Source: a bacterium
GTDB taxonomy: Bacteria; Lernaellota; Lernaellaia; JACKCT01
Reading direction: 5' to 3'
DNA: 50,165 bases
Assembly (NCBI GenBank): GCA_019912885.1
Contig: JAIOHV010000123.1
Span: 1 to 50,165 of the forward strand
Shown here: one piece after another, positions 23,969 to 45,046 of the stretch
Layout: every line of letters begins with the position of its first letter
Position numbering within the stretch: the stretch's first letter is position 1
Notes under the pieces: model-generated
Seen by the model: only the letters and a program-made list of their open reading frames with translations
What the model was told of the DNA's origin: nothing
Database searches by the model: none
Made by a program: the position numbers and the translations under genes

Positions 23969-23982
23969 CTGAGTCTATTCAG
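23969..23982. promoter_or_regulatory. Candidate enhancer-binding dyad 2
   Basis: CTGA-N6-TCAG is centred about 42 bp (four helical turns) upstream of dyad 1 and on the same DNA face. Short and therefore weak on its own; it overlaps the last codons of the neighbouring NuoM-like gene. Confidence 0.25.
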
Positions 23983-25465
23983 GCTGTTGGGGCGTGCTCC
24001 GCCAATTTGTCAGCACGTCAGGGTTGGCAGCTCGAACCGGACCGGCACGACGGCGGGGTGCGCGCTCGCCCAGGGACGACAATCGAAACGCCGGCGCCGG
24101 ATCGTCCGGCGACCGGACAACGTGCGCGGCCTTCACGCGCGAAGCGAGAATCGGCTGCGGCCACAGTCCAAGAAGCGCAAGTGCGAAGACAAGGGCCATG
24201 AAACCCAGGTCCTCGCGCCGGCGCAATGCGAGCCGCGGATTGACCGGCACGCGTTCGCCGCAGAACAGGCGAAAATACATCCGCACGACGGCCAGACCGT
24301 TCAACACCGTCGCGACGACGATCGCCATGCCAAGGCCGGGGCGCGTCGTGACGGCGTCCGCGACGAGCAGCTCGGTACCGACAAATCCGAGCGTGCCTGG
24401 AAAGCCGACGGAACACAGGCCGAGCAAAAGGAAGCCCGCCGCCAGGCGTGGCGTGTTCTCGTATCCGCCGCTGTAGCGCGCAAGGGTGACGCGGCCGCGG
24501 CGCGCCTCCAGGGCGGCGAGCGTCATGCCAAGACCGGCGAGCGCCAGGCCGCTTGAAAGGAAAAGGAGAAGACCGCCGGCGAGGCCGGTCTCCGATGCGC
24601 CGGCGAGCGACGCGAAGACGATCGCCGTTTCGCTTACGAACAACCACCCGAACGCGCGGCGCGCGTCAGTCTGCACAAGCGCGATGCCCGCGCCGTAAAC
24701 GCACGTCGCGGCCGTCGCGACGGCGAGCACGGATCCCATGACGACGGGCGCCGCGGGGACCACGAGGCGAAGCGCGGCGAAAGTCCCCCACTGCGGCACG
24801 GCGAACATCAAAACGGCCGGGAGGGGGGCCCGCGCGAATAGATGCGGCAGCCAGGACTGAAACGGCGCCACGCCCTGGCGCACCATCGCGGCGGCGAGGA
24901 TGAGCCCCGCGCCGAACGCCGACGCCGAGCGCGCAAGCGCGACGCCCGCGACAAACAGCGACGCGGCGATAAGGGCGTTGATGCGAAAGCTCGGGCGCAC
25001 GCGCGCGGCGTTCGGAAACGCGCCAAGCTCGAGATCGAGCGGAAGAAACGAAAGCACGAAAAACGCGGCCAGGCCGATGTCGGTCGCGGAGGCGAAACCG
25101 CCGGCGATGAACGCCTCGGCCAGCATCATCCGCGCGGCGCTGCCCTCGCTCCATTTGCGCATCGGCGCGACAACCGCGACAAACAGCGCCACCGTTGCGG
25201 CGAAAACGAACAGCGTCGCGTTGAGTTCGTCCAGGACGAACACCGCCCGCGCACCGAACATCGGGCCGGGATCGAGCGGATCAAGCCACGCACCCCTCGC
25301 GCCGCGCGCACCGCGTTCGATGAGCGCGCCGGCCGACGCCGCGAGAACGAGCAGGTTCACGACAAGCACGACGCGGCGCTGCCGCGCGGGAATCGCGCGC
25401 GCGACGATCGCGCCCGCGACGGGCGCGAGGACCATGATCGCGATCCACGGGACAAAAAACGTCAT
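23975..25465 (-). CDS. NuoM/NuoN-like proton-channel subunit of Dab operon
   Basis: 496 residues, about 14 membrane helices. The proton-conducting-transporter core shows FQSWLPHLFARAPLPAVLM in place of the usual PFHxWLPxAhxxAPtpvSal, and the C-terminus has FPGTLGFVGTELL, as in NuoM. ATG 25465 overlaps the preceding stop by 4 bp. It is the third gene of a translationally coupled dabA-dabB-dabB2 run, so it likely forms part of the membrane proton path that energises inorganic-carbon uptake. Most Dab systems have one such subunit; a second, NuoM-like one is less usual. Alternatively it is a subunit of an Mrp- or complex-I-like pump. A 56-bp fragment of a near-identical sequence lies at 16339. 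Confidence 0.8.
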   Translation of the reverse strand: MTFFVPWIAIMVLAPVAGAIVARAIPARQRRVVLVVNLLVLAASAGALIERGARGARGAWLDPLDPGPMFGARAVFVLDELNATLFVFAATVALFVAVVAPMRKWSEGSAARMMLAEAFIAGGFASATDIGLAAFFVLSFLPLDLELGAFPNAARVRPSFRINALIAASLFVAGVALARSASAFGAGLILAAAMVRQGVAPFQSWLPHLFARAPLPAVLMFAVPQWGTFAALRLVVPAAPVVMGSVLAVATAATCVYGAGIALVQTDARRAFGWLFVSETAIVFASLAGASETGLAGGLLLFLSSGLALAGLGMTLAALEARRGRVTLARYSGGYENTPRLAAGFLLLGLCSVGFPGTLGFVGTELLVADAVTTRPGLGMAIVVATVLNGLAVVRMYFRLFCGERVPVNPRLALRRREDLGFMALVFALALLGLWPQPILASRVKAAHVVRSPDDPAPAFRLSSLGERAPRRRAGPVRAANPDVLTNWRSTPQQPE

Positions 25466-26841
25466 CGCGCGCCCCCGGAGGGCGGGCGCGGGGCGGATTT
25501 TCGCGCCGCGCCGTCGAGCGATATCGCGAAATTCTTCTCGAACCGGTCGAATGCGCGAAACGTTCCGACGAACGGACGCACGACGAAGCGGTCGAGGAAA
25601 TCGTCCAGATGCGCGCGCTCGAGCGCGAAGCGATACAACCGCCGGCGCACGGACGCGGACAGCAGGCGCTCGTAATGCAGCCCGGTGTGGGCCAGATGGC
25701 CGCCAACGGCGTTTTCGACGTTATGAAAATCGTGCAGCAGGCTCGGTGCGCGGAGAAACTGGAGCGAACGAACGCACGCATGCCCGACGGTGTGCAAGAT
25801 GGCGAGCCAATACAGGCCGAGCCCGACCTCGACGAGGATGAGGCTCACCTGCGTCAGCGTGGCGAAAGCAAGGGCGGTCTTGATGTCCGTCTGAACGCGG
25901 CCGACGGTCGTCGCGACCAGCGAGGTGACGAGCGCCATGACGACGATGACCGCCGCCGCGACGGCCGTTTCCTCTAACAGCGGCGCGAAACGCAAAAGCA
26001 GATACACGCCCGCGTGGACCGAGAGCGCGCCGTAGAAAATGGCGCTGGAGGGCGTGGGGCCTTCCATCGCGCGCGGCAGCCAGCCGGAAAACGGCACCTG
26101 CGCGCATTTGCCCATCACCGCGACGACGACAAGCAACATGACGATCGTCGCCTGCGTGCCGGTCAGCGCCGCGCCGGCGCCGGGCCAGGGCGCGTCACCG
26201 AAGATGTGTCCGTATTCGCCGGAGCCCGTCCAGGTGCGCAACAAGATGGCCGCGACAAGGAAGCCCGCGTCGCAAACGCGATAGACGACAAGCGCGCGGA
26301 AGCCATTTTCGACCGCCGCGCGCCGGTCGTGGAAGAACGCGACGAGCAGGCCGGCGGACAGACCGACAAGCTCCCATCCCGCGAACGCCAACTCGACGCC
26401 GCCCGCGAGAACGATGAGGTTCATGCCGGTCGCGAACAGGGCGAGCAGGGTGAAGAAGCGGTTGTAGCCGCGCTCCTTGTGCACGTAACGATGCGCGAAC
26501 GCGCCGACGACGCCGAGCAGCGCGGTCGAAAACAGCGCGAACGGGACGGAGAGACGATCGAAGATGAATTCGATCTCGAAGCGGTAATCGCCGACGTGAA
26601 ACCAATCGGGCAGGCGCAGCGCGACAAGGGTCCGGCCGCCGGCGATCATCATCCCCGCGACGAGCGCGTGGCATAAAAACGCGAAGACGAACGTCCCGCG
26701 CGTCATTCGCCCGACGGCGGTTTCGCCAAACGGGCGGCGCAAGAACCCCGCGCCGCCGAGCACGAGGAAGAGCGCGGGCGGCGCGGCCGCGGCGGCGAGG
26801 GCCAGGCTCTCGGTGATGCCCCATTCCGCGCCGGCGCTCAT
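25462..26841 (-). CDS. dabB: DabB-like (NuoL/ND5-type) proton-channel subunit
   Basis: 459 residues, multi-pass. Near the N-terminus EFIFDRLSVPFALF and then AFAGWELVGLSAGLLVAFF match ND5/NuoL. KCAQVPFSGWLPRAMEGPTPSSA contains the channel Lys and the WLPxAMxxPTPxSA signature. It is shorter than NuoL (about 600 aa) and lacks the long lateral helix, as expected for DabB. It overlaps both neighbours by 4 bp (ATGA), giving strict translational coupling with the DabA-type gene. The expected role is coupling proton flow to CO2 hydration/bicarbonate accumulation by DabA. Confidence 0.87.
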   Translation of the reverse strand: MSAGAEWGITESLALAAAAAPPALFLVLGGAGFLRRPFGETAVGRMTRGTFVFAFLCHALVAGMMIAGGRTLVALRLPDWFHVGDYRFEIEFIFDRLSVPFALFSTALLGVVGAFAHRYVHKERGYNRFFTLLALFATGMNLIVLAGGVELAFAGWELVGLSAGLLVAFFHDRRAAVENGFRALVVYRVCDAGFLVAAILLRTWTGSGEYGHIFGDAPWPGAGAALTGTQATIVMLLVVVAVMGKCAQVPFSGWLPRAMEGPTPSSAIFYGALSVHAGVYLLLRFAPLLEETAVAAAVIVVMALVTSLVATTVGRVQTDIKTALAFATLTQVSLILVEVGLGLYWLAILHTVGHACVRSLQFLRAPSLLHDFHNVENAVGGHLAHTGLHYERLLSASVRRRLYRFALERAHLDDFLDRFVVRPFVGTFRAFDRFEKNFAISLDGAARKSAPRPPSGGAR

Positions 26842-29800
26842 CGTGCGCCTCCCGCGGGCGCGATCGTCGCGCAGGCGATGGGGTCGCGCCGGCCGGCGTA
26901 CCAGCGCGCCGATGACGCGACGATCGGCAGTTCGTCCGATTCGATCTCGTGCGGCACGAAGGCTCCGCTCGCGGCTTCGAAGAGACGGATGTCCACGCCG
27001 CCGGGCGCGAGCGTCGCGAGCGTGATCCAGCGATGACGCACGAGGCGGTCGATCGCGGGCAGGCGCGCAAGCACCGCCAGAAGCGTATCCGGATCCGTCT
27101 CGACGACAATGACAAGGCGGACGGGCTCGTGGATTTCGACCATCTGCCAGGGCAGGCCCGTGCGCAGGTCGCTCGCGTGCCCGTCCATGACGCCGAGCAT
27201 CGCGCTGATGTTATGCGGCAGCTTCGTTCCGCAGCCGTAGCCAATCGGATCGACGAACGAAAAGTAGTATTCAAGGCTGATGCCCGCGCACACCGGCACG
27301 ACCGCCGCGAGCACGCGCTCGAGGATCGCCCCGTCGGCGCCGTCCGTGGACGGATCATACGAAACGAGAAAGGCGCGGCGATCAAGGAACAGCCCGCGCG
27401 TCCTTTCGCGCCGGCCGACGACGCACACCGCGTTCGTGGCGTGGCCGTACTCCGGGCGCGGCTGCGCGAGATCCTCCGTGCGCATTTCCACGTGCTCAAG
27501 CGCCATCGCGGGCGAAATCGCGTCGCCCGCGTGATCGAAGCGCCGGCAGCGCTCGTGCGCGTTTCGCTCGCGGGCCGCATCGAACGCGACGCGCACGGCC
27601 TCGAAATCGGCGCGGTGCGTCGTGGGGACTTCGTCGTCGAAAAAGCTCACGGCGTCGTTGCAACTGTTGTGCTCCGCGCCGACAAATCGCGCCGCCGGCG
27701 GAATTGAAACGCCACGCCGGGCCAGCTCCTCGCGGACGGCCGGGTTGTTGGCCATCAGCGCGAACGCGCGCGCGTTCGGGCCGCCGCGCCCGCCACCGCA
27801 CGCGCCGCAATCGTGCGCCGACTCGTGGGGGTTGTTCAGACTCGACGATCCATGTCCGACGATGACGACGAGGCGCGAAAGCCGCGCGGCAAGCCCTGTT
27901 TCCCGAAGCACGGCCGCGACAATCGACGCCATCTCGGCGATATCGTAGCCCGCGCGTTCGCCGAGCATGGGCGCCGCGTTTTCGTCGCGCTCGACGGACA
28001 GTTGCGTGCGCGCGGGAAGCCGCGTCAGGCGGCCGATCCGATGGCGCACGCGGGCGGCGGTGCGCGGAAACAGAACGCGGGCAATCAGCGGAAACGCGGC
28101 AAGCGCGCCGAGCATCGCGGTGAGGACGGCGCCGCGCGTGAAGGTTCGGCTGCCTACGTCGTAGGAGCGGCGCATGCGGCCGATGCGGCGAAGTAGCGCG
28201 CGGCGCACGCGAGCCTCGGTTTCGTGCGTCTCGAGGATGCGTTCGGTCACTTCGTGCGCGGGACGGATGACGACGGGGCATAACGGGCGCGGGTGCGCGT
28301 CCGATGCGCCGCGGTAATACATGGCGACGCCGAAAAAACCGGCGTAGCCGAAGGTCTCGCACGCGGGCTCGACCTCCTCGAGATGACGGCGGATCGATTC
28401 CTCGCGCTCGTCGATGCAGAACATCGCCTGAAAACGCGGGGGGTCCGCCTGGATTCGCGGCGCGCGATCGTGGTGCGCGGCGAGCGCGTCGAGGATGCCG
28501 ATCCGATGCCGCCGCTCGTACGCGAGATGCCAGAGCCGGCGGCGCTCGATGTCGCCGAACGCCTCGATGTCGTCGAGCACGTCGCGGACCGCCCTGGCGT
28601 CGAGCGCGCCGACCTCGCGCGCGGATCGGCCGGCGAGTTGCGCGACCTGATAAAGCACGTACGCATCGCGAATCGGCGGGCTTGCGGCGTCCCGGGGCGC
28701 ATCGTCCGCCGGAATCGCGCCGGCGGCGTCGCGCAGATCGGCGAGCGGCAGGTCGAATCGCTCTTCCAGCAGCACGTGCGCGCAGGCCGCGCGATCGGCC
28801 AGAAGCCGGAGCGCGAGGAAATCGACGAGCCTCGCGGGCGGCGCGAAGGACGGAACGCGATCCGGGCGCTCCTCGACCTGACGGATCATGCCGGCCCATC
28901 CGCGCAGCGCCAGAAGCGAAGCGGCGACAAACGCATCCCATTCGTCCGCGCCGACACCAAGCACCGAAAGCGAATGCACGGCGGATGCCTCGGCGGATCG
29001 CCCGGCCTCGCGATCGAACGCAAGCAGGCGGGCAAACTCCGCGGGAAAGCCCGGTCCGCGATCGGGCTCGCGGCCATAGAGATCGCGCGTGCCCGCGTAC
29101 AGGCCCGCGTCGCGATCGGGCATGGGCCAATAGGCGATGCCTTGATCCAGGAACGCGGCGCAAACGCGGATGAGTATCGGATGCGCGAGGGCGTCCGCGT
29201 CGCGGCCGGTCAGCACAAGCAGCGCGTCGCGGTGACGCGGTGACGAGGATTGAGGATTGAGGATTGAGGATTGAGGATTGAGGATTGAGGATTGAGTGGA
29301 ACGCAAATTCGCCGAGGCATCATATCCGTCCGTCGCGCGTTCGGCGGCGTGGACGCAAGCGCTCCAGAGGGCGCGAAGGGCGGCGGGTTCGTCGCCGCGC
29401 GACAGGGCGCGCGCGGCGCCGCGATGCGCGTCGATGACGCGCCCACGCGCCTCGTGCGGGGCGTCGTCGCGGAAGCGGCGAAGCAGCGCCGTTTCCTCGA
29501 TCAGCCAGCGAAGTTCGGTTTCGGCGGGCGCGTCGATGCCGCGCGCGAGCGCGGCGAAACGCAGATCGAAGCGCGCGATGAAATCGCCAAGACAGGTATC
29601 GGCGGTGTCGCCGAGGTCGCGGGCGAGAACATCGCGCAGGTCGATTTCGCGGATGCGGCCGGCGGCGAATTCGTTTCGATAGTGTCCTTCGGGCAGAAAG
29701 GGCTCACAGCCGAACAGGCGCCCGGCGGCGACGACGGCATCTTCGAACGGGCGATCCTCGAAGGCGTGCAGCGTATTGTGATGAATGAAGATCGAGATGG

Positions 29801-29924
29801 GGCCCTGAGCGGGCAGGAGATGGGCGGCGTGTCCGATGGCTTCGTGGAGGCGGCGGGCGCGGACTTCCGGCCCGCCTTGATCAGGTCCCGGTTCCGGCTC
29901 CCGCGTTTGATTATCACCCGACAA
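26838..29924 (-). CDS. dabA: DabA-like (DUF2309) inorganic-carbon transport subunit
   Basis: 1028 residues from TTG 29924 (AAAGGG upstream); no ATG gives a better start. IFIHHNTLHAFEDRPFEDAV is the DUF2309 N-terminal signature. Zinc-site candidates are Cys and Asp in MFCIDEREESIR (about 501-503), His in VIVGHGSSSLNNPHESA (about 690) and Cys in HDCGACGGGRGGPNARAF (about 706), the beta-carbonic-anhydrase-like set known for DabA. The protein is cytoplasmic and bound to the DabB membrane subunit, where it is thought to hydrate CO2 unidirectionally. An in-frame heptanucleotide repeat (29245-29296) inserts a low-complexity QSSILNP stretch at about residues 208-226. Divergent from the receiver-like gene at 30251. 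Confidence 0.9.
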   Translation of the reverse strand: MSGDNQTREPEPGPDQGGPEVRARRLHEAIGHAAHLLPAQGPISIFIHHNTLHAFEDRPFEDAVVAAGRLFGCEPFLPEGHYRNEFAAGRIREIDLRDVLARDLGDTADTCLGDFIARFDLRFAALARGIDAPAETELRWLIEETALLRRFRDDAPHEARGRVIDAHRGAARALSRGDEPAALRALWSACVHAAERATDGYDASANLRSTQSSILNPQSSILNPQSSSPRHRDALLVLTGRDADALAHPILIRVCAAFLDQGIAYWPMPDRDAGLYAGTRDLYGREPDRGPGFPAEFARLLAFDREAGRSAEASAVHSLSVLGVGADEWDAFVAASLLALRGWAGMIRQVEERPDRVPSFAPPARLVDFLALRLLADRAACAHVLLEERFDLPLADLRDAAGAIPADDAPRDAASPPIRDAYVLYQVAQLAGRSAREVGALDARAVRDVLDDIEAFGDIERRRLWHLAYERRHRIGILDALAAHHDRAPRIQADPPRFQAMFCIDEREESIRRHLEEVEPACETFGYAGFFGVAMYYRGASDAHPRPLCPVVIRPAHEVTERILETHETEARVRRALLRRIGRMRRSYDVGSRTFTRGAVLTAMLGALAAFPLIARVLFPRTAARVRHRIGRLTRLPARTQLSVERDENAAPMLGERAGYDIAEMASIVAAVLRETGLAARLSRLVVIVGHGSSSLNNPHESAHDCGACGGGRGGPNARAFALMANNPAVREELARRGVSIPPAARFVGAEHNSCNDAVSFFDDEVPTTHRADFEAVRVAFDAARERNAHERCRRFDHAGDAISPAMALEHVEMRTEDLAQPRPEYGHATNAVCVVGRRERTRGLFLDRRAFLVSYDPSTDGADGAILERVLAAVVPVCAGISLEYYFSFVDPIGYGCGTKLPHNISAMLGVMDGHASDLRTGLPWQMVEIHEPVRLVIVVETDPDTLLAVLARLPAIDRLVRHRWITLATLAPGGVDIRLFEAASGAFVPHEIESDELPIVASSARWYAGRRDPIACATIAPAGGAR
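29245..29296. repeat. Heptanucleotide tandem repeat inside dabA
   Basis: Seven perfect GAGGATT units plus GAG lie within the dabA coding region. The unit length is not a multiple of three, so gain or loss of one or two units would shift the frame, while the present number keeps it open. In the minus-strand protein it is read as repeated QSSILNP. Confidence 0.9.
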
Positions 29925-30035: not shown

Positions 30036-30190
30036 GACCCGCTCCCTAACGGTCGCGGTTCGTATCCGGGAACGGGAGACCCGCTCCCTTACGGTAGCGG
30101 TTCGTATCCGGGAACGGGAGACCCGCTCCCTAACGGTCGCGGTTCGTATCCGGGAGACCCGCTCCCTTACGGTCGCGGTTCGTGTTCAGC
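30036..30190. repeat. 42-bp tandem repeat, about 3.7 copies
   Basis: Units begin GACCCGCTCCCT and continue through CGGTCGCGGTTCGTATCCGGG; they start at 30036, 30078, 30120 (36 bp, lacking 6 bp) and 30156 (partial). Each junction contains GGGAG-acccg-CTCCC, a small hairpin. It lies between the divergent dabA and receiver-like genes, so promoters of both may be near or within it. The unit resembles a repeat I recall from Planctomycetes and Verrucomicrobia intergenic regions (not searched). Confidence 0.85.
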
Positions 30191-40416: not shown

Positions 40417-40655
40417 AAGGTCATCGCGAAGGCAAAAAGAGAAAAAGAGTCTGAGAGTCTGGAAGTCTGGGAGTCTGAAAGGTCATCGCAAACGCGAAAA
40501 TTAGCTCGGCGCAATTCACGGCGTCATCGACACGCCAATTTGTGACGACCTTCCAGACTTCCAGACTTTCAGGCTTCCAGACTTCCAGACTTTCAGACTT
40601 CCAGGCTTCCAGACTTCCAGACTTTCAGCCTTCCAGACTTTCAGCCTTCCAGCCT
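40395..40655. repeat. Octamer repeat cluster, two forward and one reversed array
   Basis: 40395-40427 (three units plus GGTCATCGC) and 40448-40489 (four units plus GGTCATCGC) are forward. 40545-40655 is a reversed array of about 13 units (CTTCCAGA, CTTTCAGA, CTTCCAGG). The reversed array begins with GACGACC, the complement of the GGTC end. The 250 bp between pdxA and the convergent small gene are essentially all repeat and could fold back on themselves. Confidence 0.85.
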
Positions 40656-41134: not shown

Positions 41135-41557
41135 ATGCGCGGGTTTCGATGGTTCGGCTTGATGGCGTCCGTGATTCTTGCCTTGAGCGTCGTGGCCTTC
41201 GGCTGCGGCGACGACGACGACGATGATGACGACGCCTACGGCGATGATGACGACGATGACGACGACGACGATGGCGGCGATATCGCGGTTGACGCGGAGA
41301 TCTTCGAGTTCGATGTCGATCCGGCGGTCATCGATGTGTTGGTCGGCGAATCCGTGCGCTGGACGAACACGGGCGACGTCGCCCACACCGTGACGAGCGG
41401 CGATCCCGGCGACGGCGATGCGGGATCGGAGTTCGACGGCGAGATGTCGCCCGGCGAAAGTTTCACGCACACCTTCGATACGGTTGGTGAGTTCAGCTAT
41501 TTCTGCGGGTTTCACCCCGACCAGATGAGTGGATTCACGGTGAACGTGAGCGAGTGA
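41135..41557 (+). CDS. Cupredoxin lipoprotein with polyaspartate linker (copy 1)
   Basis: 140 residues from ATG 41135 (GAAGGAGG upstream). The lipoprotein-type signal ends AFGC at about residue 24. It is followed at once by a linker of about 20 Asp with few Tyr/Ala/Gly, then a plastocyanin-like beta domain. Copper ligands are visible: His in VAHTVTSG, and Cys, His and Met in YFCGFHPDQM. This is a type-1 blue-copper site. It should carry electrons in the periplasm from an outer- or inner-membrane anchor, the Asp run acting as an extended, hydrated tether (inference). A related gene follows 112 bp later. Confidence 0.82.
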   Translation: MRGFRWFGLMASVILALSVVAFGCGDDDDDDDDAYGDDDDDDDDDDGGDIAVDAEIFEFDVDPAVIDVLVGESVRWTNTGDVAHTVTSGDPGDGDAGSEFDGEMSPGESFTHTFDTVGEFSYFCGFHPDQMSGFTVNVSE

Positions 41558-41669
41558 TCGCGTTGTTCGCGTCCCGCCGCGCCGAACGGGGTGCCGGGCG
41601 GTATCGCGCCGGGTAAGTCCGGCTAAGTTCCCCGCGCCCATCGCGGGACGCGGAATCGAAGGAGGAAAT

Positions 41670-42191
41670 ATGCGCGGATGGAAGCGTTTTGGAGTTTTGA
41701 TTCTGGCAATCGGGCTGGCGTGCGTTTCGTGGATGACGGCCTGCGGGGACGACGACGATGACGACGATGACGACGCGACAGGCGACGACGATGCGGATGA
41801 CGACGACGCCGATGACGACGACGCAAATGACGACGACGCCGATGACGACGACGATGCCGACGACGACGATGCCGATGACGACGATGCGGGTGACGACGAT
41901 GCGGGTGACGACGACGGTCCGCTCGATGTGGATATCTTCGATTTTGACGTGTCGATCGACCCCGTGATGATCAGCGCCGGCGACACGGTGCGTTGGACGA
42001 ATACGGGCACGGAGGAGCACTCGGTGACGAGCGGGAATCCGGGCGATGGGGATCTGGGATCGCTCTTCGACGAGTTCCTGTCGCCGGGGGAGGATTTCGA
42101 GTTCACATTCGACACGGCGGGCACCTACGACTACCACTGCCAGCCGCACTCGGACACGATGTTCGGCTACAGCGTGGTGGTGAGCGAGTAG
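41670..42191 (+). CDS. Cupredoxin lipoprotein with polyaspartate linker (copy 2)
   Basis: 173 residues; ATG 41670 with AAGGAGG. Lipobox-type TAC at about residue 25, then roughly 55 residues of Asp with interspersed Ala, Asn, Thr and Gly, longer than in copy 1. The cupredoxin domain has His in EEHSVTSGNPGDGD and Cys-His-Met in YHCQPHSDTM. Copies share DTVRWTNTG/ESVRWTNTG and the loop TSGxPGDGD, so they are tandem duplicates that have diverged. The intergenic space contains a CCCGCG-CGCGGG hairpin and no gene. Confidence 0.82.
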   Translation: MRGWKRFGVLILAIGLACVSWMTACGDDDDDDDDDATGDDDADDDDADDDDANDDDADDDDDADDDDADDDDAGDDDAGDDDGPLDVDIFDFDVSIDPVMISAGDTVRWTNTGTEEHSVTSGNPGDGDLGSLFDEFLSPGEDFEFTFDTAGTYDYHCQPHSDTMFGYSVVVSE

Positions 42192-44903: not shown

Positions 44904-44907
44904 TTCA

Positions 44908-45046
44908 ATTGAGAATTGGGAATTGGGAATTGCGAATGGGGAATTCCGTCGCAATTCCATCGCCGTTCAACACGAAGGCACAAAGACACGAAGGCCACAA
45001 ATTGAACTTTGTGCTCTTTGTGTTGTTCGGTTTTTTGTGTTGAAAA
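44908..45046. repeat. Heptamer and octamer repeats with inverted arms after gyrB
   Basis: GGGAATT heptamers (44912-44945) are followed by a reversed copy near GGAATTCCGTCGCAATTCC. Then ACGAAGGC/ACAAAGAC octamers (44975-45001) are mirrored by TTTGTGCTCTTTGTGTTG. A T run (TTTTTTG) lies just beyond. The spacer between the convergent gyrB and haemolysin-III genes may work as a two-way transcription end. Confidence 0.7.

Follow-up and report, generated by a model that had tools for sequence, protein, structure and literature searches.

Does a perfect heptanucleotide array in the coding sequence of dabA turn the gene on and off, or is it a repeat that has entered the gene and happens to stay open? 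A preliminary description of the window (the whole 50,165-nucleotide stretch analyzed here) had raised both possibilities after counting seven perfect 7-bp units inside dabA, a count borne out by TRF, which calls (GAGGATT)7.4 with exactly the boundaries given in Table 1 (period 7, match 100%) within an open frame. A search of the window for two consecutive units with up to two mismatches returned six occurrences against 0.25 expected, all six of them inside this array, which lies early in the gene, within its first quarter. It is a direct heptamer array and not a palindromic element, with no inverted arms seen in its sequence. The wider DNA flank of the array was also considered as a candidate long repeat and rejected, as it gave weak matches only.

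Judged from its sequence, the gene that carries the array looks functional, since the zinc-site residues are kept and two membrane partner genes follow downstream with 4-base overlaps (Table 1). The Pfam DabA family (PF10070) matches residues 31–967, on both sides of the array (E 5.3e-237, 789 bits, cut-off 25), and residues C503, D505, H691 and C706 of the zinc site are invariant in the homologue alignment, their counterparts in the solved DabA2 (9rd0) being Cys351, Asp353, His524 and Cys539 (numbering taken off the alignment). The adjoining genes carry Proton_antipo_M domains and supply the DabB-type membrane partner. The closest DabA homologue, in the related genome G001, shares 61–62% identity. 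A RuBisCO-like match was noted elsewhere in the genome.

Table 1 Features of the dabA locus and the other heptamer arrays found inside genes (L numbers denote sampled loci of the same genome)
Feature	Position or locus	Strand	Description
dabA	26838..29924	(-)	intact, 1028 codons, TTG start; Pfam DabA
Heptamer array (genic array in dabA)	29245..29296	(-)	52 bp, 7.4 perfect units; AATCCTC in dabA sense; encodes STQSSILNPQSSILNPQSS; sequence and TRF
Two direct copies of 8-mer GCGGTGAC (as on +)	29229..29244	(-)	adjoining the 3' side of the array (dabA sense); sequence
Degenerate leader copy GCGTTCCA	29297..29304	(-)	GCGATTCCA minus one base; found allowing one indel
DabB-like membrane partner	25462..26841	(-)	Proton_antipo_M and Proton_antipo_N; 4-base overlap with the dabA end
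Second Proton_antipo_M membrane protein, NuoM-like	23975..25465	(-)	4-base overlap with the DabB-like gene
Genic array, sigma-54 activator	L144		
Genic array, GT4/methyltransferase protein	L148		
Genic array, ABC transporter	L156		related unit CAATCTT
Genic array, GT2	L160		
Genic array, ispE	L161		
Genic array, radical SAM protein	L162		

The frame arithmetic of the array is the feature that makes a switch conceivable. The units had been described as lying in frame; dabA is indeed open across the array, but the unit itself is not a multiple of three, and the openness comes from the stop-free character of the sense heptamer. Because 7 mod 3 = 1, the dabA sense yields one cycle, SILNPQS, whichever of its three frames is read, and that cycle has no stop; in the antisense direction a TGA stop interrupts every frame. 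The expectation that slippage by one unit would truncate DabA held up in computed products: loss of one unit brings a stop at codon 235, gain of one unit leaves the wrong frame past the array, with a stop at codon 811, and loss or gain of three units regains the frame.

Comparison with DabA homologues, suggested as a check in the preliminary description, places the array in a part of the protein that varies in length. The insert amounts to 18 additional residues relative to G001 DabA, between the conserved ALWxAC and RHRD motifs, the latter starting at the two 8-mer copies in the alignment. Among homologues this linker spans 37–73 residues (63 in the present protein). In 9rd0, whose DabA2 is part of a working complex (PMC13144422), profile positions 81–211 (about 130) align with just residues 94–131 (37), leaving next to none of the linker in a DabA2 complex that works.

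The repeat is dispersed through the genome, a draft assembly of 230 contigs. A three-unit pattern gave 42 matches at 25 places, on both strands and on many contigs, with none for the reversed control. Within a 636-kb sample (about one seventh of the genome, chosen in part for heptamer arrays), we counted 38 perfect period-7 arrays of at least three units against none in simulated sequence, and no other period of four or more approached this, making period 7 the outstanding repeat class of the sample. Heptamers fall into about 1,170 possible classes, of which AATCCTC alone accounts for 25 of these 38 arrays in a sample chosen in part for that very unit; the 298 kb that were not chosen for the repeat hold three heptamer arrays, all of other units. 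Most of the 25 perfect AATCCTC arrays are intergenic despite 81% coding DNA in the 636 kb, as called by a simple home-made codon-usage finder that is crude and biased towards intact frames. The longest of the intergenic arrays (C204) measures 73 bp. With a 7-bp unit, many arrays above chance and a mostly intergenic position, the family thus belongs with the dispersed bacterial heptamers (long simple sequence repeats, LSSR, and short tandemly repeated repetitive sequences, STRR).

Outside this genome, the GAGGATT/AATCCTC pattern was absent from the six other genomes of the class. Each species is represented by one genome, and the family by three, which belong to three different genera. In sampled relatives, other heptamers formed single arrays: AATCCGC in G002 and ACGCCTC in G001. 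Across 386 genomes, the three-unit pattern had three carriers besides the present one, compared with two for the reversed control, a difference too small to show clear enrichment of the short form among random genomes. For a 38-bp form, matches lay in 102 stretches from many phyla, a count made without a control unit. Runs of the heptamer with at least five units (loci L042–L121) were observed in very distant phyla, often beside the near-variants ATCCACT, AATCCTG and CACTCCT.

Read in the AATCCTC sense, many of the arrays in the genome have a common leader, GCGATTCCA, ahead of them. Allowing two mismatches at most, leader plus array start was found at 29 places and its reversed control nowhere, and the leader form TGCGATTCCAYTC occurred 25 times (control, 0). 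The form TGCGATTCCA is followed by differing heptamers (CTCAATC or CTCGATC; CTCGTCA; ATTCCCA; ATTCCGC; TTTCCTA), and at loci L280–L304 it heads no fewer than five different heptamer arrays, itself often following CTCCGTGT-type repeats. The leader was absent from the flanks of 81 arrays of the same heptamer at 80 foreign loci. The shared leader offers a handle on how heptamer arrays spread. Taken furthest, these observations could describe a composite element that overwrites the genome, consisting of the fixed leader TGCGATTCCA and a heptamer changing from copy to copy, with dabA and ispE as in-frame landing sites. A leader that stays constant before a changeable unit would suit active copying or templated synthesis better than independent slippage, but we hold this broader idea to be rather unlikely.

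At dabA, the leader–array junction reads GCGTTCCA-CTCAATCC, with one leader base missing. This degenerate leader copy ahead of the array links it to the dispersed family and points to a dispersed element rather than to a product of local slippage. A local origin, in which a chance AATCCTC doublet in dabA expanded by slippage with no relation to the intergenic arrays, would agree with the short duplications that adjoin the array (GCGGTGAC twice), but it would leave unaccounted for both the leader copy and the dominance of a single heptamer class in the sample, even one chosen in part for that class, and we judge it improbable.

Counting as genic only those arrays with coding signal on both flanks and one shared frame, we found seven, including that in dabA (Table 1); this count leaves out many arrays whose long open frame proved to lie immediately before a gene, with one flank devoid of coding signal. 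All seven are in frame and all seven lie in the stop-free orientation, each adding a peptide of the LNPQSSILNP type. The orientation is forced, because the opposite one has stops. Frame-keeping is not forced by the arrays themselves, whose lengths are 24, 29, 31 and 52 bp (dabA the longest, the other six 24–31 bp), and in the absence of constraint one third of genic arrays would be expected in frame. Within the 636 kb of this one genome we saw no gene disrupted by an out-of-frame array, although the finder could overlook a switched-off gene if both its halves scored poorly. Two candidate switched-off genes, at L262 and L276, were set aside, as their frames look like spurious antisense ORFs. 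At L156 (8223–10616), ABC ATPase and permease domains share a single frame and are bridged by a repeat mosaic with CAATCTT heptamers; this frame is possibly two genes fused by repeats.

The array in ispE is the most telling of these. The IspE protein of this genome scores as a TIGR00154 equivalog (190 bits, cut-off 139) and also matches a solved IspE, and its insert TGTGTGTGTWNRGTTDGDGDSLNPQSSILNPRGSSILNPL, of about 36 residues, is missing in the solved IspE and in the relatives compared (G001 and G004; L185 and L186 were left out). The inserted stretch (L161:600–830) is an in-frame mosaic of a second dispersed repeat, the (CGGGCA)n hexamer, with the AATCCTC heptamer. IspE is required for the MEP route to isoprenoids, and a random off switch in its gene would therefore make no sense.

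Taken together, we consider it likely that a dispersed heptamer element has invaded dabA in frame and is tolerated there, and that the frameshift it permits is a mutational liability. The alternative of a harmless repeat invasion that stays open, as the preliminary description had phrased it, has thus gained ground from the genome-wide heptamer, its in-frame presence in unrelated genes including ispE, and the length-variable dabA linker. The proposed element would consist of (CTCAATC)n behind the short leader GCGATTCCA, and would have been inserted in, or copied into, the hypervariable linker of dabA. Its persistence there may have three grounds: in the dabA orientation the heptamer is stop-free in any frame and always gives the SILNPQS peptide, the linker would tolerate changes of length, and selection would hold the total insert at a multiple of three. 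A slip of one or two units would then yield occasional dabA null mutants, a liability and not a regulated state; the insert itself is presumably neutral, and frameshifted cells should be infrequent. Two points sit less easily with a tolerated invasion: the dabA array, at 7.4 units, is the longest found in a gene, and its leader is one base short. Its length should also make it the most slippage-prone of the genic arrays.

A phase-variable contingency locus was weighed against tolerated invasion. Here replication slippage would turn DabA on and off in the manner of neuO, leaving the population mixed in readiness for high or low CO2. The unit is not divisible by three and lies in coding sequence, as phase variation demands; the units are perfect, fall early in dabA and give a null product upon one unit lost or gained; the array is longer than any other genic one; and the 4-base overlap with the next gene might make a frameshift polar as well. 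A heptamer switch of such design does exist: neuO of E. coli K1 carries the repeat AAGACTC, is on if the number of units, which ranges over 3–53, is divisible by three, and stands in the off state in 65.6% of genomes (PMC13001214). The dabA array resembles it as a non-triplet heptamer in coding sequence in which a one-unit change shifts the frame, but differs in having 7.4 units, in frame, of a repeat that is not specific to the gene. The repeat stands at 25 places, mostly intergenic, and also lies in ispE and other conserved genes; free switching would put about two thirds of genic arrays out of frame, whereas dabA and the six other genic arrays of this one genome included no off allele; dabA is neither a surface nor a restriction gene; and the linker that takes up the insert is dispensable. 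Contingency control of carbon uptake is accordingly left with the frame arithmetic, nothing about the array being peculiar to dabA and no switched-off array having been found. There is no evidence for a dedicated switch at dabA, and we give this reading little credence; as a caution, a non-triplet repeat in a gene need not be a phase switch.

An assembly or binning artefact, which a draft genome and the proneness of repeats to mis-assembly might suggest, is very improbable given that a usual short read is longer than the 52 bp of the array, that the frame is intact on both flanks with clear identity to G001, and that the unit characterizes this genome, recurring on many contigs.

Several known systems come close to the present arrays. 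By the account of Mrazek (2007) given in PMC4679880, heptamers rank first among the long simple repeats of many bacterial genomes, and genic repeat units tend towards divisibility by three. LSSR/STRR examples include TAACTGA in Beggiatoaceae (PMC4679880) and GGGNATC in Xanthomonas and Nostoc (PMC4692102). Like these, the present arrays are dispersed, of few to about ten copies and mainly intergenic, have a genome-dependent unit and are scattered over phyla; unlike them, they include several in-frame arrays in conserved genes and a shared leader before different units, and GAGGATT has GG pairs where the Xanthomonas type has GGG tracts. In Borg elements, the units of genic tandem repeats are all divisible by three (PMC9879509). 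Those amino-acid repeats are likewise perfect at the DNA level, in frame and additive of a low-complexity peptide, but the unit described here is seven, and the frame is kept via the total insert and a stop-free reading independent of frame. Rickettsia palindromic elements are single palindromic elements inserted in frame within genes; they share with the present arrays the tolerance of dispersed repeats in frame in conserved proteins, and differ from them in that ours are direct heptamer arrays lacking a palindrome. In this genome, heptamer arrays enter housekeeping genes in frame even though seven is not divisible by three, which the published trend would not predict; the heptamer may escape that rule because it is stop-free in every sense frame.

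Other repeats were noted in the window and in the genome. Between dabA and the next gene lie 3.7 copies of a 42-bp repeat, GACCCGCTCCCTAACGGTCGCGGTTCGTATCCGGGAACGGGA (30036–30183), whose core, CTCCCTNACGGTCGCGG, is dispersed over eight sampled loci and reads HPLPDGRGS in a TMEM260-like protein (L150). A further dispersed element, CATCCTGAGCGNAGCGAAGGATC, was present at nine sampled loci of the genome within L144–L183. In the same window, TRF reported an octamer array, CTTCCAGA x12.9 (40550–40652), and a heptamer array, AATTGGG x5.6 (44907–44945), and long GAC/GAT repeat tracts run over two short plus-strand frames at 41209–41916.
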